The translations under genes were made by a program, and so were the position numbers. From positions 1-35,449 of the forward strand of contig JAPLRS010000025.1 in assembly GCA_026399015.1 (NCBI GenBank): 35,449 bases of DNA, written 5' to 3'. Origin of the DNA: Methylococcales bacterium. GTDB taxonomy: Bacteria; Pseudomonadota; Gammaproteobacteria; Methylococcales; Methylomonadaceae. The notes beneath the pieces are model-generated. The model made no database searches. It was not told the DNA's origin and was given only the letters and a program-made list of their open reading frames with translations. How positions within the stretch are numbered: the stretch's first letter is position 1; the number at the start of each line of letters is the position of its first letter. Shown here piece by piece: positions 16,186 through 34,730 of this stretch.

Positions 16186-16764
16186 ATGACATTTATACAA
16201 CAGTTATGGCTAATATTAGCGGGTACTTGGACAGTGTTGGAGATTCTTGTTGGGTATAAAACACGTATATCGTTTTATGATTCAGTTCCACAGCTAAAGA
16301 ATTATCAAAAGGAGCGCCTTATTTGGCTGGTCGTGGTAATTTCGATTATCGGCGCTTTTGGTTTTAAACATTTGCAGTTAGTGCAATTACCCATGAGCTA
16401 TGGGGTGCGGCAAATAATTGCTTTAATAATGATGTTGATAGGCCTGATGATCCGTTTCTACGCGATAAAAAGGTTGGGGCGGTTTTTTAGTACGACAGTT
16501 GTGATTCAAAATGAACATGCACTGATCACTCATGGACTTTATCAGTTTATAAGGCATCCTGCTTATACGGGGTTACTGATTAGTTTTTTTGCCATAGGTG
16601 TTGCTATGGGTGATATTTTAGCGATACTTATTTTAGTTTTGCCATTAGGACTTTTTCTAAAACAACGAATTAGCGTTGAAGAAGATATTTTAATCGGCCA
16701 TTTTGGTAAAGACTATTTGGAGTATGCCGTTCGAACAAAGAAGCTTATTCCTTGGCTTTATTAA
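16186..16764 (+). CDS. Isoprenylcysteine carboxyl methyltransferase family membrane protein
   Basis: This 192-residue integral membrane protein has about five hydrophobic segments. It carries the C-terminal SAM-binding signature of the ICMT/PEMT-like family: HGLYQFIRHPAYTGLL (about 128-143), the E-E-D acidic pair at about 166-168, and F-G-K-D-Y-L-E-Y-A-V-R-T-K-K-L-I-P. Bacterial members methylate poorly known lipid-soluble acceptors. It lies 64 bases upstream of crtN on the same strand, so it is probably read with the carotenoid genes. Because that pathway ends in isoprenoid carboxylic acids, carboxyl methylation of a carotenoid is a reasonable but untested guess. The ribosome site is weak. 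Confidence 0.85.
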   Translation: MTFIQQLWLILAGTWTVLEILVGYKTRISFYDSVPQLKNYQKERLIWLVVVISIIGAFGFKHLQLVQLPMSYGVRQIIALIMMLIGLMIRFYAIKRLGRFFSTTVVIQNEHALITHGLYQFIRHPAYTGLLISFFAIGVAMGDILAILILVLPLGLFLKQRISVEEDILIGHFGKDYLEYAVRTKKLIPWLY

Positions 16765-16828
16765 TAGTTGATACTTCTATAGATTCAAAGTTTTCATTCA
16801 TTTAAATTATTTAATCTCTTTATCTTTT

Positions 16829-18334: not shown

Positions 18335-19926
18335 CTCAAGAGATTACAGCGTGTTCGGCGATAACTGAACAGCTCGTTAAAACTTTTGCGGTGACTCCGT
18401 TAGAGGATGTTACTAAGGCACTGCTTGAGGCACGGGATGCTGTGACTGTCTGGGAGGCTTTTACGGTTGAGCAACGCCTTAAACATTTAGTAAAACTTGA
18501 AGCAATTATTATTGCGGAAATGGATGCTATTGTTGAAATTATTATGGTCACGACAGGTAAAGTGAAAACTGAGGTTTTACTCGGTGAAATTTATCCAGTT
18601 TTGACTACCTTGCGATATTATCAAAAAAATGCGGCGGCTATTCTGGCCAGTGCGCCGGTTATTACGTCGCCTATTTTATTTCCAAAATCTAATGCTGAAG
18701 TTTATCGTCGACCTTTCGGGGTAGTCGCTATCATTTCACCGTGGAATTTTCCGTTTCAATTGACTCTAATTCCTATACTGACTGCGCTTATAAGTGGTAA
18801 CTCGGTCATTTTTAAAATGTCTGAATTAAGCTTACCCGTAGGTGATTTGTTGATAGATTTATTATCAAGATTGGCTTTGCCAGAAAATTTAGTTCAACAT
18901 GTGATCGGTTTTGCGGAGACGGGGCAACAATTGATAGAAGCCCGTCCAGATTTAGTGTTTTTTACCGGTAGTGTTATTGCTGGTAGAGCTGTAATGGCAA
19001 GTGCCGCCCAGCATCCTATTCCCGTTATTTTAGAATTAGGTGGCAAAGATGCGATAGTCGTGTTTGCTGACGTTAATCAAACTCGGGTAGTCAATGCTGC
19101 TTTGTATGGGGCTTTTAGTAATAGCGGTCAAGTGTGTGTGTCTGTTGAGCGGTGTTATGTCGAGGCCTCATATTATCAAAATTTTATTAGTCAGCTTAAT
19201 GTTGCCGTGCAGAATCTTAAAGTCGGGCATGGATGTTTAGGCGATTTAGGTGGACTTACTACCTTAAAGCAATTTGCTGTCATTGAAGCTCATTATAACG
19301 ATGCCTTGGCAAAGGGTGCTAAAGCATCAGGACCATTGAAACTAGAGGGTCGATATTTGCATCCTGTTGTATTGTGGGATGTGACCCATGATATGAAAAT
19401 TATGCGCGAAGAAACGTTTGGTCCCGTCTTGCCAGTGATGAAGTTTACTTCAGTAGCTGAGGTGATTGAATTAGTAAATGATAGTAATTTTGGTTTAAAT
19501 GCTAGTGTTTGGAGTCAGAATATTGCAAAGGCGGAGCAGGTCGCCAGACAATTAAATGTCGGGAGTTGGGCGGTAAATGACGTTATTAAAAATATCGGTC
19601 ATCCCAGTTTACCCTTTGGGGGGACTAAAAATAGTGGCTTTGGACGATACCACGGTGCTGAAGGCTTGCGAAGTTTTACTTATACCGTAGCAGGACTGAC
19701 GAGTCGTAGTACTTATGAATCTGAACCTAATTGGTTTCCTTATTCAGATCAGCGTTACATTGAAATGCGGGCTTTTCTTGATCTAATGTTTGGTGATGGG
19801 TGTTTGTTTTTTCGGATAAAAAACAACTGGCGTGCATTACAAGCATTTAAACAGTATTCATCTTTAAACTTAGTTCAGCATTGGCATAACTTAAAAATAA
19901 AATTTTTTAAAAAATCTATTGGTTGA
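18331..19926 (+). CDS. ald: Carotenoid aldehyde dehydrogenase
   Basis: This NAD(P)-dependent aldehyde dehydrogenase is likely to oxidise diapocarotenoid aldehydes to carboxylic acids. Catalytic residues are in place: Asn139 in SPWNFPF, Glu235 in ELGGKD and Cys269 in SGQVCVS. The nucleotide loop FTGSVIAGR and the late motif EETFGPVLPV are present. The start at 18331 is chosen over an in-frame ATG at 18295 because it makes an ATGA overlap with the crtN stop; that gives 531 residues and translational coupling. The last ~70 residues form an extension beyond the ALD core with aromatic and basic character, possibly for membrane contact, as expected for an enzyme with a membrane-bound lipid substrate. 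The crtN-like oxidase follows after 48 bases. Confidence 0.88.
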   Translation: MTQEITACSAITEQLVKTFAVTPLEDVTKALLEARDAVTVWEAFTVEQRLKHLVKLEAIIIAEMDAIVEIIMVTTGKVKTEVLLGEIYPVLTTLRYYQKNAAAILASAPVITSPILFPKSNAEVYRRPFGVVAIISPWNFPFQLTLIPILTALISGNSVIFKMSELSLPVGDLLIDLLSRLALPENLVQHVIGFAETGQQLIEARPDLVFFTGSVIAGRAVMASAAQHPIPVILELGGKDAIVVFADVNQTRVVNAALYGAFSNSGQVCVSVERCYVEASYYQNFISQLNVAVQNLKVGHGCLGDLGGLTTLKQFAVIEAHYNDALAKGAKASGPLKLEGRYLHPVVLWDVTHDMKIMREETFGPVLPVMKFTSVAEVIELVNDSNFGLNASVWSQNIAKAEQVARQLNVGSWAVNDVIKNIGHPSLPFGGTKNSGFGRYHGAEGLRSFTYTVAGLTSRSTYESEPNWFPYSDQRYIEMRAFLDLMFGDGCLFFRIKNNWRALQAFKQYSSLNLVQHWHNLKIKFFKKSIG

Positions 19927-19974
19927 GTCGGATAAACTCAAATCACTAATATTTATAATCACTGAGACAATGGC

Positions 19975-21474
19975 ATGAATAAAAATAATAAACCTCATAT
20001 TGTTGTAATTGGAGCTGGGCTAGGTGGTTTGTCCGCGGCAATTTCATTGGCATCAGAAGGCTTTAGTGTCGATTTATTGGAGAAAAATGACAAAGTCGGC
20101 GGTAAATTAAATATCTTAGAGAAAGACGGCTTCACCTTTGATTTAGGTCCGTCTATTTTAACCATGCCACATATTTTTAAAGCCTTGTTTGATAGAGCCG
20201 GCAAAAATATGGATGATTATGTCAGCATTCAAACAGTTGAGCCGCATTGGCGCAATTTTTTTGAAGATGGTACTACGCTCGATTTAAGCTCGGATCCAGA
20301 AATAATGCAACAGGAGTTGTTAAAATTGGGGCCGAATACACCTAAAGAATTTGCTCGGTTTTTAGCCTATTCTAAAAAACTATGTGAAGTGACTGAAGAC
20401 GGTTATTTTGCACAGGGCTTGGATTCATTTTGGGAGCTTCTTAAATATTATGGTCCGGTTAAGAGTTTGCAAGAGTTTGATGTTTTTCGATCAATGGATC
20501 AGGGCGTTAAACGCTTTATTAAAGATCCAAAGTTAGTCGATGTACTCAATTATTTTATTAAATATGTTGGTTCGTCTCCTTACGATGCACCCGCTTTAAT
20601 GAATTTATTGCCTTATATTCAGTTTGGTTATGGGCTTTGGTATGTTAAAGGTGGCATGTATGGCATGGCGCAAGGTTTAGAAAAGTTGGCGCTTGAGTTG
20701 GGGGTTAATATTCAAGTGAATGCTGAGGTTAAAGAGATTCAGCATGAAGCGGGTTATGCTTCTGCTGTAAAGCTAGCTGATGGGTCAGTGTTAAAAGCGG
20801 ATATTGTCGTTTCAAATATGGAATTGATTCCGGCTTATAAAGAATTAATGTCAGGACAAGAAAAAGAAATAAAACGCATAGAAAAGTATGCGCCTAGTTG
20901 TTCTGGCTTAGTCTTGCATCTGGGTGTTGATAGAATTTATGAACAATTAGCGCATCATAATTTCTTTTATTCTGATCATCCGCGTGAGCATTTTAAGGCA
21001 ATATTTCATGAGCATAAATTGTCAGAAGATCCCACAATATACTTAGTTGCTCCTTGTAAGAGTGATCCAGCACAAGCCCCCGAGGGTTGTGAGATCATTA
21101 AAATATTACCGCATATTCCACATTTAGATCCTAATAAACCTTTAACCGCAGAAGATTATGCTGATTTAAGAGAGCGAGTTTTAATTAAATTAGAACGCAT
21201 GGGTTTAACGGATTTAAGAAAACATATAGTTAGTGAAGAAAGTTGGACGCCTGTAGATATTCAAGCCAAATATTATTCTAACCAAGGGTCCATCTATGGG
21301 GTAGTGGCAGATCGGTTTAAAAATTTAGGGTTTAAAAATGCTCAGCGCAGTAACGTTTTAAAAAATCTGTATTTTGTAGGGGGTAGTGTTAATCCAGGTG
21401 GTGGAATGCCTATGGTGACATTATCTGGACAGTTAGTGCGAGATAAGATTTTGGCAGATTTATCTAAGCATTAA
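19975..21474 (+). CDS. crtNb: CrtN-like carotenoid oxidase (CrtNb/CrtP type)
   Basis: This FAD-dependent member of the phytoene desaturase family has 499 residues. It has VIGAGLGGLSAA (GAGLGG at 13-18), L-L-E-K-N-D-K-V-G-G-K-L, and a C-terminal motif GGSVNPGGGMPMVTLSGQL. The N-P-G-G-G-M-P-M form is closer to the CrtD/CrtP side of the family than to desaturases, so I predict oxidation of terminal methyl groups of diapolycopene or diaponeurosporene to aldehydes, supplying the adjacent aldehyde dehydrogenase. The assignment between oxidase and second desaturase is inferred from this motif and the gene order, not proven. GAGAC lies about 8 bases before the ATG. A 111-base gap separates it from the next gene. 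Confidence 0.8.
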   Translation: MNKNNKPHIVVIGAGLGGLSAAISLASEGFSVDLLEKNDKVGGKLNILEKDGFTFDLGPSILTMPHIFKALFDRAGKNMDDYVSIQTVEPHWRNFFEDGTTLDLSSDPEIMQQELLKLGPNTPKEFARFLAYSKKLCEVTEDGYFAQGLDSFWELLKYYGPVKSLQEFDVFRSMDQGVKRFIKDPKLVDVLNYFIKYVGSSPYDAPALMNLLPYIQFGYGLWYVKGGMYGMAQGLEKLALELGVNIQVNAEVKEIQHEAGYASAVKLADGSVLKADIVVSNMELIPAYKELMSGQEKEIKRIEKYAPSCSGLVLHLGVDRIYEQLAHHNFFYSDHPREHFKAIFHEHKLSEDPTIYLVAPCKSDPAQAPEGCEIIKILPHIPHLDPNKPLTAEDYADLRERVLIKLERMGLTDLRKHIVSEESWTPVDIQAKYYSNQGSIYGVVADRFKNLGFKNAQRSNVLKNLYFVGGSVNPGGGMPMVTLSGQLVRDKILADLSKH

Positions 21475-21585: not shown

Positions 21586-24500
21586 ATGAGTTTATCTGCT
21601 AGTTCTTCTCAGTCTGATGTAATCAGTGCAAGTCAATTACAAGAGTTACAACATATTAATTTGCAATTAGCGGCTTTAGGTCAGCCAATTTGCCAGATTG
21701 ATGATGAGCAAAATTATTTACAAATTGCAGATAGTCTTTTAAAAAATTATGTTCAGCAACGTCGCTTATTAGCTAAGTATCGTTGTCCTGCAGATCAGCG
21801 TATTCAAGATTTTTTAAATACCTATTTAAAGGTTAATGGCGTTTCTGCAGATATAAATCTGCCGGGGCAGACATTTGTCTTAGAAAGGACCGGTTTAGCA
21901 AGAGCCCTATCATTACCTTTTCAAGAAAATGAATTTCATTCAGCGTATGTAGATTCCTATCGAATGGCGCAGGGGGTATTACATAATCCACAAAATGATA
22001 GGCGCACTACTAAAGGTGTGTTTCATATTGTTGCGGGTGGATTACCTGTGCCTGCTGACAAAAATGAGGTGCCTGTTGCTGCTTATGCGCAATTATTACG
22101 TTTAGCGTTAACGCCTCCAGATGATTTGTTGGATTTACCGTTTACTAGTCAACAAGAAAACTCAGCCAAACTTTGGTTATCTTTGTCATTAAGCCCTATT
22201 GTAGTGCCAGAAGTGGCCGGAGTTACACCCTCAAAAATCATGGAAACTCGATTTTTTGTGCCTGGTGGCTTGGTATCCAATTTAGATTTTGTGGAGTCTA
22301 TTTTCGGTAATGCAGGGGATCCGTTTTTACCAGAAAATGATGTGGCTCTGGATATTGAACATTGGACGGGGCATACAGGCTGTATTATTTTAGCGCCCCA
22401 TTTAGTGCGCTACCGCAAGCAGGATTTAGGCTTACCCCATTATAACGATGCGACTGAGCGACAACGCATAGATGGTATGTGTTGGCAAAGTCCTGATGAG
22501 TTATATAACGATGGTAAACCCTTTAAGCTAGTGTGCCGAGATATGACCGGCGTGATTGTGACTTTAATAGCTGATAATTATTTTGGTTACAGTAAAAAAG
22601 AAATCAAATCTCAAATCAGTTACTCAGCAAACCTTTTTGGCGGTTGTGAAGAAGAACATTCAGGCGGAGCGTTGGCTTTTCCTAGAGCTATTTTAGGCGA
22701 AGTGTATTTGCCGCAACTTGATCATAGTTATCATGATCATTCATTTGAGAAACTGAGCCAAAAGTGGGGTGCTGATATTGCGTTACAAATAGAGGGTTAT
22801 GCGATTGATAAGCGCTATCCAAGCATTGTTTTTATCCCTGAGACTGCTCAAATAAGTATTCCTAAATTACAGATTACTTGGCAACATGCCGGCAGTTTGC
22901 GGACTTTAAAATTGCTCCATAATCATACCTATGTCTATCCAGATGGCTTTAGAGTGACTATGGAAAGGCATCCTCATGCGCCTAGTTGGCGACTGATTGG
23001 TACTTATCCAGAAGGCACTTTTTGTCATAAACCTAGCACCGTTTCTGGTGGAGGCAAGTCTGAAATTTCAAAATCTATTGCAGGTGCAGTTATATCGGGT
23101 GCTGTTTTTGTCGATGATTTTGATAAAGATATGGCGATGGTAGCGGATATTTTTAATTACGATTATTCAAAACGGTTTTTAGACTCGCATCGTAATGGAT
23201 CTGATCAACGGACGTTGTTGAGTAATGAGCGTACTTTAGGTTCTGTGATTAAATTGCTAACGCCGTCGGTGACGCAATATACCCATGAGTATAATCACTG
23301 GCTAAAGAAAATCCCGCAACACATTTTAGCCTTAGTGTTGATGATTAAACGGTTTTACAAAGTGGAATGGGGTCAAAACTGGCGCGAACACTTCTCGGTT
23401 GACTTAGTAAATGGCTATCCGGGTAACGAACTTAAGTTTAATGGCCGAAAATTGTTGGCGAGTTATTTACGGGTGGGTTTTGATACTAATGGTGCTTGGC
23501 GGGTTTTTAAATTAAGACAAGATTTTGTGGCTTCTGAAAAAGTGCAATTAGAAGATGATATTACCGCTTCTGTCGTGGTACCAGCCAAACAATTGACTGG
23601 ACTTAATCCAGACTATGAAAATGCAAGCGTTAAATTAGTTGAGAATTGTGAACTAAGCTTCTTTCAAAGACCAGACGATGCTGTTAATCGAGGCGCAGAT
23701 TTACAAACGGAGTTGGATTTTTCGGGGACAAACAATTTCATTTCAAATTTTGAACCGCTTACTGCGACTGATGCGAGAGAATTGATTGAAGATATCGTGC
23801 ATTTTGAAGAGTTTAGTCAGCCCATGCGTGAGTTGATTATGTCAGCTGCACAAAATAAAGCTGGGGAATACTTTGTATCATCTGCACATCCGCGCTTAGT
23901 GGAAGGTAAACCAAGTCAAAATGTGCGTTATTTACAAGCAAGGCCCGATAAAGTTAATCCTATGACACGTTATTTGGCAGAATTATCAACGCGTTTAGCG
24001 CGTGGCTTAAAAGCTGAGCAAGCCATTTATTTTCCTGTAAATGCTGTGATGCCCGGCAGACGTAATAATCCTAGTGACCTTAAAGCTGGTATTAGACCGT
24101 TAGCAATTTACAATCCTATTCATTATCAGGAACTTCCTGAATTGTTTATGGATTTTATTTGTAGTTTAACGGGTAAATCACCCTCTACAACTGGAGCGGG
24201 TTCTGAAGGCGCTTTAACTAAAGGTCCGTTTAATGCTGTATCAACGACTGCTGATCTAAATACCGCATTAGTGTCTTATATTTTATGTGGATATGATGGC
24301 TATTCAACGGCTGCTGGCTATATCGGGGCAGAACGTAAAATTGATCATGATATTAGCTTATTAATTCCCGAATTATGGTCAAGATTACCCGTTGAACAAC
24401 GTGATCCTCAGCATTTAATTGCGCAAGGTCAATTAGAAAAGTTGGAAGATTTCGAATATGAAGGCGAGATAGTGTATGCCAGTCGCTTAGGATATCGAAT

Positions 24501-25038
24501 TACCGAGCGTTTTGTGCATACTAATTTTGGTAAAATATTTGACTATCCAACTGCTGTTTTTGATGAGGCGATGTTAAAACCTGAAACACAGGATATGGCT
24601 AGTTTTGTAGATGGTATTAATAATGTATATAGCGCTCAGCAACGCGTGGCTCAGATGTACTTTAAGGATGGAACTATTAACGATGCTTGTCCACCTCTAA
24701 AAGCTTTGTTACATATCATGGCTTACGGAACTTATGAGGGTAAAGATATTAATGATGCCAGTATTAGGAAATTATTTAAGCGTGATTACTTATTGCAAAG
24801 CGCATGGTATCAAGAGCGTTTAAGCATTAAGCAGCAAAGAGATATTGAACTTTGGCAACGACATTTTGATTATTTATCACAGCGAATCTCACAAATAGAA
24901 GCGTCTGATGAATTGACGCCTGTTTTTGCAGAAAAATTAGAGGTAGTTGATCAACGTTTGCAAGAGTTAAAGCACGATTCGTATTTGCAAAGTTTATCAG
25001 GCACTTTAGGTGCTGATTGGGTACATCGTACTCATTAA
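21586..25038 (+). CDS. Candidate PPi-type phosphoenolpyruvate carboxykinase
   Basis: This 1150-residue cytoplasmic protein has no signal or membrane segments. I assign it tentatively to the pyrophosphate-dependent PEP carboxykinases (about 130 kDa, described in Entamoeba and Propionibacterium), which interconvert PEP, CO2 and phosphate with oxaloacetate and PPi. PEPCK-like elements occur in the right order: FGGCEEEHSGG (351-361), which I compare with the glycine-rich substrate loop; a P-loop-like VSGGGKSE (486-493); and VFVDDFD (507-513) as the acidic metal-binding strand. A second glycine/serine-rich loop, TGKSPSTTGAGSEG (862-875), is unexplained. Length and motif order are the main support; without a search it could be another large PEPCK-like family. 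Only a weak GG-containing stretch precedes the ATG. It is followed at 35 bases by the O-methyltransferase gene, likely in one transcript. Confidence 0.6.
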   Translation: MSLSASSSQSDVISASQLQELQHINLQLAALGQPICQIDDEQNYLQIADSLLKNYVQQRRLLAKYRCPADQRIQDFLNTYLKVNGVSADINLPGQTFVLERTGLARALSLPFQENEFHSAYVDSYRMAQGVLHNPQNDRRTTKGVFHIVAGGLPVPADKNEVPVAAYAQLLRLALTPPDDLLDLPFTSQQENSAKLWLSLSLSPIVVPEVAGVTPSKIMETRFFVPGGLVSNLDFVESIFGNAGDPFLPENDVALDIEHWTGHTGCIILAPHLVRYRKQDLGLPHYNDATERQRIDGMCWQSPDELYNDGKPFKLVCRDMTGVIVTLIADNYFGYSKKEIKSQISYSANLFGGCEEEHSGGALAFPRAILGEVYLPQLDHSYHDHSFEKLSQKWGADIALQIEGYAIDKRYPSIVFIPETAQISIPKLQITWQHAGSLRTLKLLHNHTYVYPDGFRVTMERHPHAPSWRLIGTYPEGTFCHKPSTVSGGGKSEISKSIAGAVISGAVFVDDFDKDMAMVADIFNYDYSKRFLDSHRNGSDQRTLLSNERTLGSVIKLLTPSVTQYTHEYNHWLKKIPQHILALVLMIKRFYKVEWGQNWREHFSVDLVNGYPGNELKFNGRKLLASYLRVGFDTNGAWRVFKLRQDFVASEKVQLEDDITASVVVPAKQLTGLNPDYENASVKLVENCELSFFQRPDDAVNRGADLQTELDFSGTNNFISNFEPLTATDARELIEDIVHFEEFSQPMRELIMSAAQNKAGEYFVSSAHPRLVEGKPSQNVRYLQARPDKVNPMTRYLAELSTRLARGLKAEQAIYFPVNAVMPGRRNNPSDLKAGIRPLAIYNPIHYQELPELFMDFICSLTGKSPSTTGAGSEGALTKGPFNAVSTTADLNTALVSYILCGYDGYSTAAGYIGAERKIDHDISLLIPELWSRLPVEQRDPQHLIAQGQLEKLEDFEYEGEIVYASRLGYRITERFVHTNFGKIFDYPTAVFDEAMLKPETQDMASFVDGINNVYSAQQRVAQMYFKDGTINDACPPLKALLHIMAYGTYEGKDINDASIRKLFKRDYLLQSAWYQERLSIKQQRDIELWQRHFDYLSQRISQIEASDELTPVFAEKLEVVDQRLQELKHDSYLQSLSGTLGADWVHRTH

Positions 25039-25073: not shown

Positions 25074-25766
25074 GTGACTGATGTTTTAAGTCCGAAAAAG
25101 ATGCCGCCACCGCGTCGAACCCCACCAGTCAGTCCTGCAGTAGAAAAGTACTTATTAGATTTATTGGGCCCCGCAGAAAATGCAGTATTACAAGAAATGG
25201 AAGCCTTAGCAGAAAAGAATAATTTTCCTATTGTTGGGCGTTTAGTCGGTGTGTTTATAGAAATGCTGGCTAAGATGATTAACGCCCAGCGCGTGTTTGA
25301 GTTTGGTAGTGGTTATGGTTATTCGGCTTATTGGTTTGCTAAAGCAGTGGGCCCCAGTGGGCAAGTAATTTGCAGCGAGGCTGATTTTTTAAATAGAGAT
25401 AAAGCTGAGCACTATTTAAGTGCTGCTGGATTATGGGACAGGATCGATTTTAAAACCGATATGGCGCAAAATGCTTTTGCGCAGACTGAGGGTTTGTTTG
25501 ATATTTGCTATAACGATGTGGATAAAGGCGATTATCCCGATATTTGGTTATTGGCTAAAGATAGAATCCGTCCGGGTGGTTTATATATTGCGGATAATGT
25601 TTTGTGGCGCGGGCGAGTCGCAGCGCATTCTGGAAAAGACGTATTTCAAGGGTGGACGGAAGCCATTCGACAACACAATCAAATGATTTTTGATGATCCT
25701 GATTTTGAGACCTTTATAAATCCGAGTCGTGATGGTGTAATAGTCGCACGTAAAAAAACAGATTAA
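25074..25766 (+). CDS. SAM-dependent O-methyltransferase (Methyltransf_3 family)
   Basis: This class I methyltransferase of 230 residues belongs to the caffeoyl-CoA/catechol O-methyltransferase-like family. Motif I is VFEFGSGYGYSAYW (about residues 76-89), with an acidic residue after the next strand (VICSEAD). D-I-C-Y-N-D-V-D-K-G-D-Y-P supplies the metal-binding acidic residues, and PGGLYIADNVLWRGRV is the usual late motif. The N-terminus is Pro-rich (PPPRRTPPVSP). It starts with GTG, which is decided by a strong AAGGAAG 5 bases upstream. The acceptor is unknown. Spacing of 35 bases from the carboxykinase-like gene and 24 bases to the next gene suggests a three-gene unit. Confidence 0.88.
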   Translation: MTDVLSPKKMPPPRRTPPVSPAVEKYLLDLLGPAENAVLQEMEALAEKNNFPIVGRLVGVFIEMLAKMINAQRVFEFGSGYGYSAYWFAKAVGPSGQVICSEADFLNRDKAEHYLSAAGLWDRIDFKTDMAQNAFAQTEGLFDICYNDVDKGDYPDIWLLAKDRIRPGGLYIADNVLWRGRVAAHSGKDVFQGWTEAIRQHNQMIFDDPDFETFINPSRDGVIVARKKTD

Positions 25767-25790: not shown

Positions 25791-27284
25791 ATGCAACACA
25801 GATCAGCCAGCCAAGAACTTCATCATGAGATATTTGGCTCCATACTAGATAGGTCAGACTTAAGCCCTTATCTTTTATTATCTGCAAATAATTATAGTAC
25901 AGCGCTAAAACAAGCCACAAAGATGATGAGTAATCGTGGTTTTGATGTGGTGGCCAATGGTGAGTTACAAGAAAGTGAGCAAAAGCGAGCCTTAGTCTAT
26001 GTGGAGCGTACGTATCGGTACTTTTTAAAATGGTTGTTCCCATTTGTAAAACGCCAATTAGAGGCATTGATAGGTTTAGCGTCTAGTAATTTAGAGCTCT
26101 ATCAACAGAGTTTGCTGGCCATTAAACAGGTCGAAACGCAGTTAAAGAATCCTGCTTTTAAACAGATGGTGGAGCAAGATCCACGGCATCTATTTTTGTT
26201 AGCGTCTTCAGGAAAATATCCTACGGTATTTCATGGCTATCAAGGCAAAAAGATGGTCGTGCCTTTAGAATGGCAACAAACGGCTTGTGCTTTGTTAAAG
26301 ATGGGGTATTTGATTAAATCTATTGAAGAAGAAAGCCAAGATATTAATGACTTTGCCCAATTAGGTTTCTTTTTAGAAGCAGAAAAACAAAGTCTAAATG
26401 ATTTATTTAATTATGATTGGGAAAATCCCAAACATATTCCTGCTAATGAGCCAGCTCAACATGCCTTTGTTAAAATTTCAGCGTTTTTTCATAAATTAAG
26501 AGAGTCAGTGAGTATTGATGCAGATGGGCAGGGATTTGTATTTGATAGTGGAGATGGTGTTCGAGTCGATATTGCAGAGATTAAAGCCCGCTTAAAAAGC
26601 CCAGAAAGTATGTTTACCAAGTTAGGCAAAGATTTGGAAGGGGAGGCTTATGATATTAGAGATATTTTAGCCATCACCTTTATCTTAAGAGACAAAGACG
26701 ATACCTTAAAGCTGTTCCATGCTTTGCAAAAGAAAGGCGTTATCCTACAAGAAAACACTCATTCGCAGTCCATTACTCAAACCCTGTTCGATAATCCAGA
26801 ACATATGATGGAAGCCGTACGCAGATTAATGATTAGTTTATCGCAAAGTGCGGGCCACGAGACTAGCGTGAAAGATAAAGATGTATTAGCTAATGCGCAA
26901 ACTTTTTATAATGCCTTAAGTATGAATGCAGAAAAGAATCAGCATTCATCTGCAGGCCACAGAAAGTTTCAATGCAAGATTAGTTTCTCTTTACCGATCC
27001 ATCGGCAGTCTAGAACACACAAAATTATGATCCCCGGCACTGATGTTTACGCACGTAGAAATGAGATTAATAAGAAAACCCAAGAACATACTTTGGGTGT
27101 CGAGCTACGCATCTCTGATGAAGAAAGCTGGCGCACTTCTGAGCAGAAGGGTGATTCTCATCACAGCGCTTATAAGTTTAGGCAGTTAATAGCGGTTATG
27201 AATCGGGTCTTTAAAAATGTTTATTACATGCCTAAAGATAGCATCGCTCAGTTAAAGAAAGATCAGAGTGTGTTGTTTTCTTAG
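25791..27284 (+). CDS. Conserved hypothetical protein with remote RelA/SpoT-synthetase-like motifs
   Basis: The 497-residue product is of unknown function, possibly in the TIGR04552/TIGR04562-type uncharacterised families (from memory). Residues 1-240 are mostly helical. From 267 it resembles a (p)ppGpp synthetase domain: RLKSPESMFTKL (267-278) parallels the R-x-K-S-x-x-S substrate helix. DIRDILAITFILRD (288-301) parallels the strand carrying the metal-binding Asp. VELRISDEESW plus S-H-H-S-A-Y-K (437-462) parallels the E-V-Q-I-R-T ... H-W-x-Y-K end of the fold. A segment of about 130 residues separates the last two, and the G-Y-x-S-x-H substrate motif is not evident, so catalysis is uncertain. 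There is no HD domain, TGS or ACT domain. AAGG lies about 9 bases before the ATG. A terminator follows. Confidence 0.65.
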   Translation: MQHRSASQELHHEIFGSILDRSDLSPYLLLSANNYSTALKQATKMMSNRGFDVVANGELQESEQKRALVYVERTYRYFLKWLFPFVKRQLEALIGLASSNLELYQQSLLAIKQVETQLKNPAFKQMVEQDPRHLFLLASSGKYPTVFHGYQGKKMVVPLEWQQTACALLKMGYLIKSIEEESQDINDFAQLGFFLEAEKQSLNDLFNYDWENPKHIPANEPAQHAFVKISAFFHKLRESVSIDADGQGFVFDSGDGVRVDIAEIKARLKSPESMFTKLGKDLEGEAYDIRDILAITFILRDKDDTLKLFHALQKKGVILQENTHSQSITQTLFDNPEHMMEAVRRLMISLSQSAGHETSVKDKDVLANAQTFYNALSMNAEKNQHSSAGHRKFQCKISFSLPIHRQSRTHKIMIPGTDVYARRNEINKKTQEHTLGVELRISDEESWRTSEQKGDSHHSAYKFRQLIAVMNRVFKNVYYMPKDSIAQLKKDQSVLFS

Positions 27285-27364: not shown

Positions 27365-27649
27365 TTAACTAGAGGCGTGTTCGTTAAGCCATTCTTTTAA
27401 AACCCCATCTATACGTGTTTGCCAACCTTTGCCTGTTGATTTAAATGCCTCTAATACATCAGGAGATAGGCGAATAGTAATACGTTCTTTAGTGACTTCG
27501 GCTTTGGGTCTTCCGCCTTTATAAGGCTTAAGTTCAGCAAATTCTGCCGCTGTCAGTTCGTATGTATCGGGGTCTGAGGCAATGCCGGCATTAATAGCGA
27601 CTTCTTCTTCAAGATTAGGGAAAATAGTATTTTCTTTAAGCTTTGGCAT
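27365..27649 (-). CDS. brnA: BrnA family antitoxin
   Basis: This is the antitoxin and DNA-binding autorepressor of the BrnT/BrnA module. The 94-residue protein has a flexible acidic N-terminal part (about 1-50) and a C-terminal ribbon-helix-helix domain: RITIRLSPDVLEAFKSTGKG followed by WQTRIDGVLKEWLNEH, the usual BrnA pattern. The start at 27649 is preferred over an in-frame ATG at 27727, which lies deep inside brnT. The chosen start has GAGAG upstream and gives a 14-base overlap with the brnT stop, typical of the pair. BrnA is expected to bind the palindrome upstream of brnT and to neutralise BrnT. Confidence 0.9.
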   Translation of the reverse strand: MPKLKENTIFPNLEEEVAINAGIASDPDTYELTAAEFAELKPYKGGRPKAEVTKERITIRLSPDVLEAFKSTGKGWQTRIDGVLKEWLNEHASS

Positions 27650-27902
27650 ATTGGTTAATCTCTCGATTATTGGCTTTTCGTAGGCTAATGATGCGTCGGC
27701 TTTCGTTGCGGTCAGTATAAATAACACAATGTAATCTGAGGCCTATATAGGCGTAACCTATTTGACGATCTTCGCCATAATCATAACGAGTATCTGCTAG
27801 GGTCCAAAGCGTATCCCACTCAAGTAGGTTGGCGTCATTAAGTGAAACGCCATGTTTATCAATATTGACAGTATCTTTTACGGCATCATAGATAATTTTC
27901 AT
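27636..27902 (-). CDS. brnT: BrnT family ribonuclease toxin
   Basis: The 88-residue toxin has the RelE-like fold. The N-terminus (YDAVKDTVNIDKHGVSLNDA) matches the W/Y-D-x-x-K-x-x-x-N-x-x-K-H-G-V-S signature. The C-terminus (RRIISLRKANNREINQYAKA) matches the R-I-I-S-x-R-x-A-x-x-x-E-x-x-x-Y signature with the expected catalytic Lys, His and Arg residues. BrnT toxins cleave RNA and inhibit translation. The order toxin-antitoxin is the BrnTA norm. There is no ribosome site before the ATG; the promoter analysis predicts transcription starting at or next to it. The gene lies 72 bases downstream of nasA on the same strand. Confidence 0.92.
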   Translation of the reverse strand: MKIIYDAVKDTVNIDKHGVSLNDANLLEWDTLWTLADTRYDYGEDRQIGYAYIGLRLHCVIYTDRNESRRIISLRKANNREINQYAKA

Positions 27903-27974: not shown

Positions 27975-30644
27975 TTACAATAGCGCTTTAATCTCTGGTA
28001 TGCACGAACCACAATTAGTACCGGCTTTTAAGCATTGCCCCACTTCTTGGTGTGTTTTAAGTTGTTTTTCTTCAATGCACGCGCGTATTGTTTTCTCGCC
28101 GACATTAAAACATGCACAGACCACTTTGCCTGACTGATGACTGCCTTTAGGAGGGAGTCCGCTCAGAAGCGCCATACGTGCTTCGGGCTCAAGTGTTACT
28201 TTTGCGAATAAACTACTTAACCAATTGCGTTCGGGTAGCTTATGATCAGCCGCTATGAAGATAACAGCATTTAATCGCCCTTTAATAAATTGTGCCGCAC
28301 GATAACTGCCTAAACTGGCATCTTGATAGGTTTGCCATTCTGAGTTTTCTGCAATATTAGCGCTTAAAGTATCTTTAAGCGTATTTAGCCAAGGGTCCGG
28401 TAATTGTTGCCCGGCTAGTTCATAACGATAAAAATAGTCACCTTTGCTACTCACCTGATAACTTATATCACTGAGTTCTAATGGCGCTCTGGATAGAATA
28501 AAGCCGTGCCAAACAGCTTGATACGATTTGATGCGGATGGGTGTATGTTTACTTTCAGGTTGCTTAGAGATGGGATCAACTTCTGGATTAACTAAGGCGC
28601 CCATACGACCATCATTGGCATTTTGCGCCGTCCAATGCATCGGTATGAAGACATTACCAAGTGTTTGATCATCCGTTATCTTAACTCTAGCTAACATTTT
28701 GCCCCATGCACTTTCTAGTTCTGCTAAGGCATCTGCTGTTAAGTTATAGTTTTTTACATCAACCGGATGAATTTCAACACAGGGTTCTGGGCTATGTTGA
28801 TTAAGATTTGCAGAGAGTGCGGTGCGGGTCATGGTGTGCCACTGATCCCTTAAACGCCCGGTATTTAAAATTAAAGGGTAATCTTTATGCGGCAAGTTAA
28901 CGGGAGGTCTTGGCGTAATAGCAATAAATTGCGCTTTGCCAGTGGGCGTAAAATAATGGCCATCAGTAAACATGCGCTCCGTGCCCTTGGGGTTATTGGC
29001 ATTTACTGGCCATTGTATGGGCTGTAGGTTTTCATAACTGTTTTGATCAAGTGTGGCTAGGCCAGAAATATCAAAGTCCCTGTAGCCGTGCGTTATATCG
29101 TTCTCAAAGCCTGATAGTGCCGCATGTTCGGTAAAAATCTCATAGGGGTGATTGTAGTTAAACGCCTGATTAAAGCCCATGTGCTGTGCAACTTGAGAGA
29201 TTATCCACCAATCGGCTTTAGCGTTACCTGCCGGTTTAAATAACGCACGTTGTCGAGAGATTCGGCGTTCAGAATTAGTGACGGTACCGTCTTTTTCACT
29301 CCAACCTAAAGCAGGTAATAACACATGTGCAAAAGCGCTGGTATCCGTTTGTGCAATACAATCGGATACTACGACAAAATCACATTGTTTTAATGCGCGT
29401 TTAACTAGATCTGCATTCGGCATACTCACTACAGGATTAGTACCCATAATCCAGATGGCTTTAATTTCACCCGCCGATACGGCATTAAACAGTGCAACCG
29501 CGGGTAGACCTGGTTTGGTGGCGATATTGTCTGATCCCCAAAAGCGGGCGACTCGATTTACATCTTCAGCTTTAGAAAAATCCATATGCGCCGCTAATTG
29601 ATGCGCTAAGCCACCCACTTCTCGACCGCCCATTGCATTGGGCTGACCGGTGAGGGAAAAAGGTCCCATGCCGGGTTGGCCAATTCTGCCTGTGGCTAAA
29701 TGACAATTAATAATCGCGTTGACTTTATCGGTCCCCGATGAAGATTGGTTAATGCCTTGACTATACAGACTCATGACTTTTTTATGGTTTTTGAACAAGT
29801 CATAAAAATATTGCACATCTGTTTCATTCAATTGGCATTGTCCCGCAACTTCGGCAATACTTGGTGCGCTTAGTTCAGCGGTTTGGATGGCTGGTGTAAA
29901 ACCTTCGGTATGGGTGTTGATGTAGTCTTGATTAAGTACTTGCTCTGTATTTAAAAAGCTTAATAGGCCATTAAATAAAACAGCATCACTGCCACTCGCC
30001 ACAGGTAAATGTACGTCTGCTAGGTCACACGTTGCGGTATGACGTGGATCAATCACCACTACTTTTAAATCAGGTCTAGCTTGTTTGGCAGCGCGAATGC
30101 GTTGGAATATAACGGGGTGGCACCATGCGGTATTGGAGCCAATTAAAATGATTAAATCGGCCAGGTCTAAATCTTCATAACAACCGGGTACGGTATCTGA
30201 ACCAAACGCGCGTTTATGACCCGCCACAGATGATGACATACATAAGCGGCTATTGGTATCCATGTTGGCACTACCAATAAAGCCTTTCATCAGTTTATTG
30301 GCGACGTAGTAGTCTTCAGTTAATAATTGTCCTGAGCCATAGATTGCTACAGAATCTGGGCCGAATTTATTAATAGTTTCTAAAAAGGTGTTAGCGACTA
30401 ATGATAAGGCTGCATCCCAGTCGACAACTTGGCCGTTGATGCGGGGATCTAACAAACGACCTTCTAAATTAATCGTATCGCCTAATGCAGAACCTTTTGA
30501 ACAAAGTCGACCTGAATTAGCTGGGTGCGTTTGATCGCCTTTAATATCAACGCTATGTTGATTTTGATTAACAACCGCACTGATACCACAACCTACACCA
30601 CAGTAAGGGCAGGTGGTTTGAATGGCAGGTAGGGCCTTAGACAT
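27975..30644 (-). CDS. nasA: Assimilatory nitrate reductase catalytic subunit
   Basis: This cytoplasmic molybdenum-bis-MGD enzyme reduces nitrate to nitrite. The N-terminal [4Fe-4S] motif is CPYCGVGCGI with the fourth Cys in RLCSKGS. The molybdopterin oxidoreductase core follows (SNTAWCHPVIFQRIRAAK, then MGTNPVVSMP and TGRLRDQWHTMTRT). The C-terminus carries an extra BFD-like [2Fe-2S] domain (C-A-C-F-N-V-G ... NCGSCIPEI), common in NasA. The start at 30644 gives 889 residues beginning just before the cluster motif. An in-frame ATG at 30752 would add 36 residues overlapping the previous gene and is unlikely. It overlaps that gene by 8 bases (ATGTCTAA), indicating coupling. It is the last gene of the nirBD-reductase-nasA operon. 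No nitrate transporter is in the window. Confidence 0.95.
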   Translation of the reverse strand: MSKALPAIQTTCPYCGVGCGISAVVNQNQHSVDIKGDQTHPANSGRLCSKGSALGDTINLEGRLLDPRINGQVVDWDAALSLVANTFLETINKFGPDSVAIYGSGQLLTEDYYVANKLMKGFIGSANMDTNSRLCMSSSVAGHKRAFGSDTVPGCYEDLDLADLIILIGSNTAWCHPVIFQRIRAAKQARPDLKVVVIDPRHTATCDLADVHLPVASGSDAVLFNGLLSFLNTEQVLNQDYINTHTEGFTPAIQTAELSAPSIAEVAGQCQLNETDVQYFYDLFKNHKKVMSLYSQGINQSSSGTDKVNAIINCHLATGRIGQPGMGPFSLTGQPNAMGGREVGGLAHQLAAHMDFSKAEDVNRVARFWGSDNIATKPGLPAVALFNAVSAGEIKAIWIMGTNPVVSMPNADLVKRALKQCDFVVVSDCIAQTDTSAFAHVLLPALGWSEKDGTVTNSERRISRQRALFKPAGNAKADWWIISQVAQHMGFNQAFNYNHPYEIFTEHAALSGFENDITHGYRDFDISGLATLDQNSYENLQPIQWPVNANNPKGTERMFTDGHYFTPTGKAQFIAITPRPPVNLPHKDYPLILNTGRLRDQWHTMTRTALSANLNQHSPEPCVEIHPVDVKNYNLTADALAELESAWGKMLARVKITDDQTLGNVFIPMHWTAQNANDGRMGALVNPEVDPISKQPESKHTPIRIKSYQAVWHGFILSRAPLELSDISYQVSSKGDYFYRYELAGQQLPDPWLNTLKDTLSANIAENSEWQTYQDASLGSYRAAQFIKGRLNAVIFIAADHKLPERNWLSSLFAKVTLEPEARMALLSGLPPKGSHQSGKVVCACFNVGEKTIRACIEEKQLKTHQEVGQCLKAGTNCGSCIPEIKALL

Positions 30645-31848
30645 ACGCTTTTCCAAAAATGAGCTGATCTCGAATCGGGGTAATAGATTGTTCTTTTTCA
30701 AGTAATTCTTGGTACCAATAACTATCTTGGGTGTCGCCATATAATACCGCACCGATCAGTATATTCGCTCTGATTACCAGTTTTTTATAGATGCCTAAGG
30801 CAGTATCAGTAAATTGAAGGGTTTCAGAAGTTTCATCACCGATAAAATCGCCGATGGAAAAAACTTGAACCCCTGTCACTTTAAGTTTAGTGGCCGTGGG
30901 TAATGTTAGATATTGTGCTACGCCATGTCCGGTTAAGTGATTAGCACACACTTTTGCTTGCTCAAATAAAGGTGCAACTAAACCGAAGGTTTGACCTCGG
31001 TGTTGAATGCATTCACCCACGGCATAGACTCTGGGGTCATAAGTTTGCAGGGTATCGTTGACTATAATACCTTGTTCACAATACAGTCCTGCGGCCTTTG
31101 CTAAGGCTTTATTGGGCTTAACGCCGATAGCCATTACCAATAAATCACAATCAAGTTCACTGCCATCTGTGAGTTGAATCGTTTTGATATGTTCATTTTC
31201 ATCACCTAGTAATTGCTCAACTTGGCTGGCCATTTTAAAGCTTAAGCCTTTTGACTCCAGTTCTTTTTGTAATAAAGTACCCGCGACTGTGTCCATTTGG
31301 CGATTTAATAATACGGCATTGTTATGGATAACAGTCACCCGCATGCCTCTTAACGCTAAACCGTTAGCTGCTTCCAAGCCTAATAACCCACCTCCTAATA
31401 CAACGGCATTTTTGTGATGTTGGCTGTAGTCGAGCATTTTATTAACATCCGCAATATCTCTAAAACTAATAATGCCTGCTAAATGATTGCCAGGTACATT
31501 AGCTATAACTGGCTTAGAACCCGTGCTAATTAATAAGCGATCATAGTCTGCAACCGTGCCATCTTGGGTATAGACCTTTCTGTTCTGGCGATCAATGCGC
31601 GAGACCGTTTTTGATGCACCGCTATAAAGGGTGATGTTATGTTGGTCATACCATGCTTGATCATTAATGAGTATATCATCCAGCGCCTTTTCACCACTTA
31701 ACACAGATGACAGCATAATCCGGTTGTAATTACCATGTGGCTCCGAACCAAATACCGTTATTTCGTATTGATGAGGAGCTGATTTAAGTAATTCTTCGAG
31801 GGTACGGATGCCCGCCATACCATTACCAATGACCACCAACTTAGGCAT
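30637..31848 (-). CDS. FAD-dependent NAD(P)H reductase subunit of nitrate reductase
   Basis: This 403-residue flavoprotein resembles the N-terminal half of NirB. It has the FAD loop VVIGNGMAGIRT at the N-terminus, the S-T-G-S-K-P segment, the NAD-binding loop VVLGGGLLGLEAANGL (about 150-165), and V-Y-A-V-G-E-C. It is expected to pass electrons from NAD(P)H to NasA; the role corresponds to Klebsiella NasC or Bacillus NasB, so I give no symbol. It overlaps nirD by 8 bases and nasA by 8 bases, so all are translated from one message. It has no BFD cysteines, siroheme or rubredoxin domain; the BFD-like domain on NasA could complete the chain. Confidence 0.88.
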   Translation of the reverse strand: MPKLVVIGNGMAGIRTLEELLKSAPHQYEITVFGSEPHGNYNRIMLSSVLSGEKALDDILINDQAWYDQHNITLYSGASKTVSRIDRQNRKVYTQDGTVADYDRLLISTGSKPVIANVPGNHLAGIISFRDIADVNKMLDYSQHHKNAVVLGGGLLGLEAANGLALRGMRVTVIHNNAVLLNRQMDTVAGTLLQKELESKGLSFKMASQVEQLLGDENEHIKTIQLTDGSELDCDLLVMAIGVKPNKALAKAAGLYCEQGIIVNDTLQTYDPRVYAVGECIQHRGQTFGLVAPLFEQAKVCANHLTGHGVAQYLTLPTATKLKVTGVQVFSIGDFIGDETSETLQFTDTALGIYKKLVIRANILIGAVLYGDTQDSYWYQELLEKEQSITPIRDQLIFGKAYV

Positions 31849-32176
31849 GAGTAATGTTTATTTCAATGTGTTGACCGTTAATTCGTACGGGGTAAGATGG
31901 AATCTTAACCGTACTATCTTCAATACATTCCCCGGTGGTTAGCTTAAAATGTTGCTTATAAATAGGAGATGCCACGACGGGTTCACCGCTAATGTCTCCA
32001 ATAATGCCGCGTGATAAAACATGGGCTTTAGCAAACGGATCATAGTTGTGTAATGCAAATACAGCTTGCAGTTTGGATACATAAAACAAAGCGATTTGTT
32101 CTGCATCTACCAAGGCACATATTCCGGAGTCTGCAGGTATATCATCAAGATTACAAAGAGTTTGCCACTGAATCAT
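31841..32176 (-). CDS. nirD: Nitrite reductase small subunit
   Basis: This 111-residue Rieske-fold protein is the small subunit of NADH-dependent assimilatory nitrite reductase. Its pattern follows NirD: WQTLCNLDDIPADSG, FALHNYDPFAKA, V-L-S-R-G-I-I-G-D, and S-P-I-Y-K-Q-H-F. The Cys-His pairs of true Rieske proteins are absent, as in Escherichia coli NirD, so no cluster is expected. It overlaps the nirB stop by 4 bases (ATGA) and the following reductase by 8 bases. Confidence 0.95.
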   Translation of the reverse strand: MIQWQTLCNLDDIPADSGICALVDAEQIALFYVSKLQAVFALHNYDPFAKAHVLSRGIIGDISGEPVVASPIYKQHFKLTTGECIEDSTVKIPSYPVRINGQHIEINITHA

Positions 32177-34713
32177 TGCGCCACCTCTAGAATTTTAAAG
32201 TGTTTATGTGGGCTAGGCTCAGCAGGTCGGATTTGCCCACGTTCTTCAATAAACTCAATAGATGGATCCGATTGGGCACTGTTAACAAAAGGTCTGAAAC
32301 GCTTTAATTTGGTTTCATCTGCAAGGGTTGATTTCCATTCGCACTGATAGGTAGCAACAACATGCTGCATCTGAGCTTCTAATTGGTTACATAAGCCTAA
32401 ACTATCATCAATGATGACCGCTTTTAGATGATCAAGTCCGCCCGCCATGTTTTCCATCCACACGGAGGTGCGTTGTAAACGATCCGCTGTTTGAATATAA
32501 AAGCTTAAAAAGCGGTCGATATATTTGATTAAGGTGTCTTTATCTAAGCTAGTGGCAAATAAATCGGCGTGTCTGGGTTTCATGCCTCCATTACCACACA
32601 GATATAAACTCCAACCGGTTTCAGTCGCGATAACTCCCACGTCTTTACCTTGCGCTTCCGCACATTCACGAGTGCAACCTGATACGGCGAATTTGATTTT
32701 ATGCGGGGAGCGGAGACCTTTGTAACGATTCTCCAATTCAATCGCGAGTCCAACACTGTCATCTACACCATAACGACACCAATTACTGCCCACACAGGAT
32801 TTAACGGTGCGTAAAGATTTGCCATAGGCATGACCGGATTCAAAGCCAGCTTCAACCAGTTCTTGCCAAATCAGAGGTAATTGTTCAACTCGCGCTCCGA
32901 ATAAATCCACCCGTTGTCCGCCGGTGATTTTGGTATACAGTTGATATTTTTTACCAATTTGTCCTAATACAATGAGTTTATCAGGAGTGATCTCACCACC
33001 TGCAATACGTGGCACTACCGAGTAAGTGCCATCTTTTTGGATATTGGCTAAAAATGCATCATTGGTATCTTGTAAGGGCGCGTGTTCTGTTTTTAAAATA
33101 AAGTCGTTCCAGTTAGAAGCAAGGATCGACGCGACCGTTGGTTTGCAAATTTCACACCCTAAGCCTTTGCCATGTTTGTCGAGTAAATCATTAAAGGTTT
33201 TGATCTTTTCAACTTTAATGAGCGTAAACAATTCTTGGCGCGTATAAGCAAAATGTTCACACAGATCGGTATTGACTTCTACACCCTGTTTAGTCAATTC
33301 TGAATTCAATACCGATTTAACTAAAGCCGCACACCCACCACAGCCTGATCCCGCTTTAGTCGCCGCTTTTAATGCGCCTACCGTATGGCAACCAGCTGCA
33401 ACGGCCTGACATATATCCCCTTTACTCACGTCATAACATGAACAGATTTGCGCAGAGTTGGGTAACGCATCTGGCCCAAGGCCAACAGGTTCTGCATTAA
33501 GACTAGGTAAGATTAAACTATCGGGTTGTGCTGGGAGTTGAATGCCGTTTAAGCAGTATTGTAATAAGGTGCTATAGCTGCTGGCATCACCGACTAATAC
33601 TGCGCCGAGTAAGTGTTTTTTATCGGGACTGACGACTAGGCGTTTGTAGATTTCTAATTCACCATTTTGGTAAGTATAGATAAGAGCGCCCGGTGTTTTT
33701 GCATGGGCATCACCGATACTGGCGACATCAACGCCCATTAATTTTAATTTAGTACTCATATCGGCACCAGTAAAACTGGCACTCTGGTTGGCTAAATCTG
33801 CAACAACTGTTCTAGCCATAGCATAGCCTGGGGCTACCAAACCAAAAATCATGTTATTCCATAAAGCACATTCGCCAATGGCATAAATGTCAGGGTCAGA
33901 AGTTTTACATTGATTGTCGATAACAATGCCACCCCGCGCACCCACTTCAAGCTCACAAGCTCTAGCAATATCATCTCGGGGTCTGATGCCAGCTGAAAAT
34001 AAGATAATATCTGTTTCGAGTTCTTCGCCATCCGCAAAGCACATTTTGTTTAGACATGCTTCCCCATCAGTAATCAATTGCGTATTTCTGTTGGTATGAA
34101 CGGTAACCCCTAGTTGTTCTATTTTGTTTCTTAATAATGCACCACCCGCTTCATCTAATTGCACCGCCATTAAGCGCGGGGCAAATTCGACTACATGAGT
34201 TTTAAGTCCCAAGTCTTTTAAGGCTTTAGCAGCTTCTAAACCTAATAAGCCTCCACCGACGACTACGCCCACTTTACTTTTTGCTGCAGCTGCTGCAATC
34301 GCTTCAAGGTCTTCAATGGTTCTATACACTAAACATTGCGGTCTATCGTGTCCGGGTACAGGGGGCACAAAAGGGTATGATCCCGTGGCTAAAACCAGTT
34401 TGTCATAAGCGATTGTATGGCCTTGGGCAGAGGTGATGGTTTTAGTCGTGCGATCAATTTTGGCGGCTTTGTCGCCTAAAAGCAGACGAATGTTATTATT
34501 CTCAAAAAAGTTAGTTTCAACTAAAGATAAGTCATCGGCGGTCTTTCCAGAAAAAAAGGCCGAAAGATGGACGCGATCATAAGCTACTCTAGGTTCTTCG
34601 CAAAAAGTAGTGATGGTGTAGTCATCTTTTATGGAGCTGGCAACCAATTGCGCTAAGAAATGTTGCCCAACCATGCCATTACCAATAACAACCAGATTTT
34701 TTTTAGTGTTCAT
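32173..34713 (-). CDS. nirB: NADH-dependent assimilatory nitrite reductase large subunit
   Basis: The enzyme reduces nitrite to ammonium in six electrons. Domains in order are: FAD/NAD oxidoreductase (LVVIGNGMVGQHF at the N-terminus, VVVGGGLLGLEAAKAL about 150-165); two BFD-like [2Fe-2S] cysteine sets (C-S-C-Y-D-V ... GSGCGGC, then GLGCEICKP); and a siroheme/[4Fe-4S] domain with SCVGSNWCRYG and VSGCTRECAEAQGKD. The start at 34713 is chosen for its ribosome site (GAGGTT 7 bases upstream) and gives 846 residues; an in-frame ATG at 34725 is possible. Siroheme would come from CysG (2853-4247). It is the first gene of the operon. The 90 bases upstream hold palindromic sequence rather than an obvious promoter. 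Confidence 0.96.
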   Translation of the reverse strand: MNTKKNLVVIGNGMVGQHFLAQLVASSIKDDYTITTFCEEPRVAYDRVHLSAFFSGKTADDLSLVETNFFENNNIRLLLGDKAAKIDRTTKTITSAQGHTIAYDKLVLATGSYPFVPPVPGHDRPQCLVYRTIEDLEAIAAAAAKSKVGVVVGGGLLGLEAAKALKDLGLKTHVVEFAPRLMAVQLDEAGGALLRNKIEQLGVTVHTNRNTQLITDGEACLNKMCFADGEELETDIILFSAGIRPRDDIARACELEVGARGGIVIDNQCKTSDPDIYAIGECALWNNMIFGLVAPGYAMARTVVADLANQSASFTGADMSTKLKLMGVDVASIGDAHAKTPGALIYTYQNGELEIYKRLVVSPDKKHLLGAVLVGDASSYSTLLQYCLNGIQLPAQPDSLILPSLNAEPVGLGPDALPNSAQICSCYDVSKGDICQAVAAGCHTVGALKAATKAGSGCGGCAALVKSVLNSELTKQGVEVNTDLCEHFAYTRQELFTLIKVEKIKTFNDLLDKHGKGLGCEICKPTVASILASNWNDFILKTEHAPLQDTNDAFLANIQKDGTYSVVPRIAGGEITPDKLIVLGQIGKKYQLYTKITGGQRVDLFGARVEQLPLIWQELVEAGFESGHAYGKSLRTVKSCVGSNWCRYGVDDSVGLAIELENRYKGLRSPHKIKFAVSGCTRECAEAQGKDVGVIATETGWSLYLCGNGGMKPRHADLFATSLDKDTLIKYIDRFLSFYIQTADRLQRTSVWMENMAGGLDHLKAVIIDDSLGLCNQLEAQMQHVVATYQCEWKSTLADETKLKRFRPFVNSAQSDPSIEFIEERGQIRPAEPSPHKHFKILEVAQ

Positions 34714-34730
34714 GTGCAACCTCAATGCAG

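Follow-up and report, generated by a model that had tools for sequence, protein, structure and literature searches.

A conserved gene of Methylococcales and Nitrospirota

A 497-codon ORF in a contig of a methanotrophic Methylococcales bacterium, whose product carries motifs remotely like those of the synthetases of (p)ppGpp, the alarmone of starvation, raised the question of whether this protein is an active enzyme and, if so, whether it makes the usual product. The window, i.e., the whole 35,449-nucleotide stretch of DNA that was analyzed, comes from an assembly of 47 contigs with a completeness of 86%. Translation of the ORF at 25791-27284 (+ strand) gave an intact reading frame with an ATG start and zero internal stops, and profile matches, a structural model, and Foldseek assigned to it a helical N-terminal domain and a RelA/SpoT-type (SYNTH) catalytic domain.

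Homologues were found in 24 of 61 genomes, the host's own included and all 24 belonging to one genus, in 20 of the 295 genomes of a Nitrospirota survey, and at 42 loci in contigs taken from one genome per species. These 42 loci fell in Methylococcales and Nitrospirota, with one labelled Deferribacteres and one Spirochaetales, and the nearest named relatives among them were Methylococcaceae/Methylobacter. The initial annotation had called the protein an orphan, a description that these counts overturn. Identity to the window protein was 57-95% for 37 of the 38 aligned homologues and 49% for the remaining one. In a midpoint-rooted tree of 63 rows, Methylococcales formed a single clade (100/99) nested among Nitrospirota, which is consistent, under this midpoint rooting, with acquisition of the Methylococcales gene by one transfer.

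When 296 Spirochaetota genomes were searched with the NCBIfam TIGR04562 profile, two clear members were found (L097 and L075, the latter at the same place as L067), besides 12 weak matches, 11 of which lay within ORFs of 612-763 aa. RelA/SpoT motifs were present in seven of the eight weak matches examined (L098, L100-L104, and L107) and absent, under the filter used, from the eighth (L099). In Pseudomonadota, weak TIGR-profile matches occurred in ORFs of 726-738 aa, one in one search and five in another. One weak TIGR04562 match in Spirochaetota, L105 (G669:C43:64544-64690), contained three in-frame TAG codons and is either a broken gene or one in which TAG is recoded.

Relationship to RelA/SpoT proteins

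At the sequence level, Pfam RelA_SpoT was the sole family matched by 39 of 39 aligned members when E-values up to 10 were allowed (best 4.5e-5, window protein 0.0015), the next family being matched by nine members. The scores lay below the cut-off in both member rows examined, and the window protein itself reached 19.2 bits for a cut-off of 27. The NCBIfam models TIGR04552 and TIGR04562 (352 and 356 positions, versus 497 aa here) gave 67.5 and 70.1 bits over residues 215-475 and 230-475, respectively, below their cut-offs of 125 and 140. These models, whose entry carries the functionless name 'TIGR04552 family protein', share a common C-terminal core with our protein.

A search of 398 Pseudomonadota genomes gave a single protein, the TIGR04552 member L138, that scored above the cut-off of that model (295 bits); it also cleared the Pfam RelA_SpoT cut-off (28.2 versus 27 bits). 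In a one-sequence search, collinear alignments to the same regions of L138 were obtained with the family profile and with one built from 35 RelA/SpoT segments. These results support the kinship with RelA/SpoT that had been proposed from the motifs. Plain profile searches between the family set (39 sequences) and the RelA/SpoT set (35) were weak (best E about 0.009), and hhalign of the narrow family alignment against RelA/SpoT was not significant, although the expected 44 columns were aligned at E 0.096 when the comparison was limited to residues 240-497. L138 has R-x-x-K instead of R-x-K, retains D-W-I-G-I-R and F-E-I-Q, and reads S-Y-H-S-V-Q in its G-loop. Because it retains Arg and Gln where the 497-aa protein has T296 and R440, the change at the base sites may be a trait of this branch and not of TIGR04552-like proteins as a whole, to judge by the one L138-type protein compared.

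A literature search of titles and abstract starts found no study of this family; among the papers searched, one named TIGR04552 and none TIGR04562. In the 2011 classification of RSH proteins, the first trees are described as taking only RelA_SpoT E-values under 1e-5 (PMC3153485), as against about 1e-3 here, the E-value being library-dependent, and such proteins may therefore have been missed. Of six evolved Bdellovibrio lines, one reportedly carried an indel of a single base in a TIGR04552 gene (PMC9888234).

Predicted structure

AlphaFold2 was run on the full protein with an alignment of 39 sequences, and the best of five models was used (pLDDT 79, pTM 0.69; pLDDT of the other four: 72.7, 60.9, 59.4, and 58.6). 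Confidence in this model was low at residues 279-288, 321-324, and 383-389, the last stretch being the replaced G-loop. When the model was compared with the PDB by Foldseek, ranks 1-41 among the best 50 of 91 matches were all RelA/SpoT-family chains, namely RelP, RelQ, other small synthetases, SpoT, and an exported synthetase, with a best E of 0.018 (probability 1.00) and probabilities of 0.98-1.00 for the first 27 ranks. Other measures were weak, the TM-score by target length being 0.36-0.48 for small synthetases and the rmsd at least 7 Å, and zero matches of the full model reached E 0.001. The N-terminal 245 residues modelled alone (pLDDT 87) served as a control for this search: among the best 50 of their 126 PDB matches, none was a RelA/SpoT chain and the probability was at most 0.16 for all. 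The predicted fold is thus RelA/SpoT-like, as the motifs had suggested. A search of the PDB by sequence returned seven RTT109 chains (best E 0.002, 0.27 for a single stretch) and one other, with RelA/SpoT chains absent from the matches listed; these hits probably arose by chance.

According to DSSP of the model, residues 321-385 (26751-26945, +) form an insert of two helices ahead of the G-loop strand, which distinguishes the protein from the RelA/SpoT synthetase domain PF04607 of long RSH, RelP, and RelQ, the predicted fold being otherwise alike. L138 has an insert at the equivalent place, its Pfam match taking 168 residues for 110 profile positions.

Residues 1-240 (25791-26510, +) are helical in the model, which bears out the helical N-terminus described initially, and have no convincing match among the best 50 listed from the PDB. 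This domain is conserved, with D130 present in 39 of 39 sequences and R132, K176, E179, E180, and D184 in 63 of 63. The protein was also said to lack a hydrolase domain, in agreement with the absence of any Pfam HD match, another difference from PF04607 proteins, and of any RelA/SpoT hydrolase structure among the best 50 of the 126 N-terminal PDB matches. A degenerate HD hydrolase in the N-terminus, a candidate prompted by the likeness of 'IKSIEEDSQD' to a hydrolase motif, was rejected on the same structural comparison, in which the rows for the HD-type phosphodiesterase PDE10A had probabilities of at most 0.03 among those best 50.

Conserved and replaced residues of the active site

Conservation was assessed over 63 distinct sequences, among them that of the window protein and some that hardly differ from one another. 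The motifs RLKSPES (267-273), DIRDILAI (288-295), VELRIS (437-442), and SHHSAYK (456-462) lie where the initial annotation had placed them, and their conservation is above chance. Of the residues on which the annotation had relied, R267, K269, D291, and E438 proved invariant, whereas D288 was kept in 53 of 63 sequences.

The putative donor triphosphate motif R267-L-K269-SPE-S273-MFT-K277-LG-K280 (residues 267-280; 26589-26630, +) keeps R267, K269, S273, and K277 in 63/63 sequences and K280 in 61/63, with a spacing identical to that of R64-K66-S70-K74-R77 in FaRel2, a toxSAS tRNA pyrophosphokinase. According to the account of FaRel2 in PMC11782079, these five residues hold the donor triphosphate and D90 holds Mg; stacking of the adenine involves R64 and R95, together with E145 and Q147, and the acceptor base is held by residue 128, which is Tyr in wild-type FaRel2. 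We mapped these residues onto our protein by spacing and strand order (D291 to D90, T296 to R95, E438 to E145, and R440 to Q147). The metal Asp D291 and T296, five residues later (D-I-L-A-I-T; 26661-26678, +), are both present in 63/63 sequences. VE438LR440IS...SHHSAYK (residues 437-462; 27099-27176, +) spans the final strand, which carries the catalytic-type Glu, and the helix after it; here E438, R440, H457, H458, Y461, and K462 are kept in 62 of the 62 rows reaching them. By this mapping, the equivalents of FaRel2 R64-K66-S70-K74, D90, and E145 are kept, as are the RxKx3Sx3K motif, metal Asp, Glu, and last-helix Y-K of PF04607, but Y128, R95, and Q147 are replaced.

The replacements were examined against 35 RelA/SpoT segments, which had been picked, out of 38 loci tried, by their YxSxH motif. 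T296, at the fifth position beyond the metal Asp, contrasts with Arg in 35/35 segments, and two residues after the Glu, R440 contrasts with a Gln that is invariant in the 35 segments; the segments had been picked for neither Arg nor Gln. In place of the G-loop end YxSxH, present in all 35 segments because they were selected for it, our protein has SSxGHxK (residues 386-392; 26946-26966, +), in which K392 is kept in 63/63 sequences and H390 in 62/63, position 388 is variable, and model confidence is low at 383-389. The GYxSxH motif had correctly been listed as missing; in the mapping, the G-loop Tyr is without counterpart and SSxGHxK stands there.

With the phosphate and metal residues invariant and the base-contact residues replaced, the protein is probably a working transferase whose substrates have changed. 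We consider it reasonably likely, on sequence and model together, that it is a soluble enzyme of the RelA/SpoT-synthetase fold that would be catalytically competent; it is probably not a dead protein, nor one that simply makes (p)ppGpp. The initial annotation had left a choice between a divergent nucleotidyltransferase with a different product and a dead fold; the former appears to fit better, and the latter is less favored.

Among the alternatives, an ordinary synthetase ranks first, followed by a dead fold and then by a toxSAS. An ordinary (p)ppGpp (or ppApp) synthetase, with a G-loop that merely looks different, would explain why the predicted fold and the donor and metal residues are the same and why D-x-x-G-I-R and E-I-Q occur in the related L138. 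It is nevertheless unlikely, since none of the Arg, the Gln, and the G-loop Tyr is retained and two of the three have given way to invariant residues, and the host genome already carries two further, ordinary RelA/SpoT genes. A catalytically dead fold that senses nucleotides or binds proteins is a somewhat poorer candidate still. The missing acceptor Tyr and donor-site Arg and the failure to reach any of the three curated cut-offs tested (TIGR04552, TIGR04562, and RelA_SpoT) speak for it, but both carboxylates and the triphosphate set are invariant across three phyla, which would not be expected of a dead site.

If the protein does work as a transferase on changed substrates, R267, K269, S273, K277, and K280 would bind a nucleoside triphosphate, with a Mg ion held by D291 and E438 as second carboxylate. 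Because there is no Tyr to stack the acceptor base, the pyrophosphate (or nucleotidyl) group would then go to an acceptor other than GDP or GTP in the usual pose. The donor base would likewise have to be held differently, since Arg is replaced by T296 and Gln by R440. The N-terminal helical domain, which is conserved, would probably select the acceptor or sense a signal. Changes of acceptor in this fold have brought new biology, with ppGpp, ppApp, and tRNA 3' ends as examples cited in PMC11782079. The protein defines a strongly conserved branch beside families that databases know by number only, and since its reaction center is kept and its base sites are changed, its product can be sought directly.

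Possible linkage to nitrogen genes

The genes amtB, PII, or nifDK-type genes were found near the gene, on either side, at 10 of 32 Nitrospirota-type loci (6.5-19.9 kb each; 504 kb total), as against 0 of 59 contig-start stretches (833 kb) of gene-holding genomes used as a control, and 0 of 42 among those of at least 11 kb. The linkage was absent at the 22 other loci, and all ten positives lay within one Nitrospirota clade of 14 rows. In this comparison, the nitrogen gene sets were fixed post hoc, after the neighborhoods had been viewed, the queries were drawn from the same loci, and kinship was ignored.

In parallel, the presence of nifH was compared between genomes with and without the gene, kinship again being ignored. 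In Nitrospirota, nifH was above the cut-off in 16 of 20 genomes with the gene versus 65 of 275 without it (Fisher p 6e-7). The counts were 16/24 versus 7/37 for all relatives (p 0.0003) and 16/24 versus 1/11 within the host genus (p 0.003), or 17 versus 3 if contig-split nifH was counted. When host-genus genomes at least 95% complete were retained, they became 11/16 versus 1/5 (p 0.12), the split nifH of G032 being counted as present. A further 22 gene-bearing genomes, some overlapping the earlier sets, included 13 with nifH above the cut-off. A strict tie to N2 fixation was rejected, as nifH above the cut-off is lacking from five gene-bearing members of the host genus with a completeness of at least 95%, and likewise from G246 (L061, chromosome CP070632.1), in which the gene lies beside amtB/PII.

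The link of the gene to nitrogen status is thus a lead, obtained post hoc and with kinship ignored, and the physiological role would most likely be an adaptation to nitrogen or energy limitation. A more specific proposal, which we regard as possible though doubtful, is that the enzyme dispenses with the usual recognition of both the donor base and the acceptor base and makes a novel nucleotide signal (or pyrophosphorylates RNA or protein) tied to ammonium, PII, and nitrogen status in Nitrospirota and methanotrophs. If such a nitrogen-linked signal exists, ammonium sensing in both groups would gain an alarmone-like layer.

Least probable, and in our view very unlikely, is a toxSAS-like toxin with a partner antitoxin, acting by tRNA pyrophosphorylation or ATP depletion: FaRel2 likewise has a helical N-terminal extension (PMC11782079) and a BrnT/BrnA pair adjoins the gene in the window, but at 40 of the 42 loci, where ORFs of at least 70 aa were considered, no FaRel2-type antitoxin or other widely recurring small partner was found beside the gene (the commonest cluster of median <160 aa was PII, at six loci), the 497-aa protein had no match in PADLOC or plasmids at E 0.01 or in PHROG at E 0.1, 0 of 64 pattern matches in viral contigs were confirmed as this protein, and conservation is clade-wise.

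Genes surrounding the ORF

An O-methyltransferase gene (25074-25766, +; Methyltransf_3 E 1.2e-25) ends 24 bp upstream of the 497-aa ORF, with which it is possibly co-transcribed. In the same gene run, a gene for a 1150-aa protein (21586-25038, +) lies 35 bp before the O-methyltransferase gene; the NCBIfam search with this protein was empty, and its Pfam match was below the cut-off. The methyltransferase was a neighbor at 12 of 21 Methylococcales loci, some of them shortened by contig ends, and the 1150-aa protein adjoined at nine of the 21, with a conservation of 79-97%. An obligate operon of the three genes was rejected, as the neighbors were not found at the Nitrospirota loci and were missing from Methylobacter loci that have full flanks, such as L033 and L040. 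The upstream methyltransferase also matched PADLOC mads_2 (2.7e-9), probably a generic methyltransferase signal.

Downstream, a convergent NasC-type nitrate reductase gene was found in the window and at 5 of the 21 Methylococcales loci. In the window, it is separated from the 497-aa ORF by a BrnA antitoxin/BrnT toxin pair (27365-27902, -) and belongs to a group of nitrate/nitrite assimilation genes at 27975-34725 (-), which encode a NasC/formate-dehydrogenase-like protein with a NifU/NirB-like C-terminal segment, a NirB-type FAD protein, a Rieske protein, and a NirB with NIR_SIR domains. In genome G022 (L025), a 24-codon extra copy of the 3' end of the gene, 96% identical and perhaps the remnant of a duplication, was observed about 2 kb beyond the gene (contig C79:30541-30612). 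Finally, an aldehyde dehydrogenase gene lies between two CrtI-family desaturase genes at 16186-21474 (+) of the window, after an isoprenylcysteine methyltransferase-like gene, and this group looks like a carotenoid cluster.
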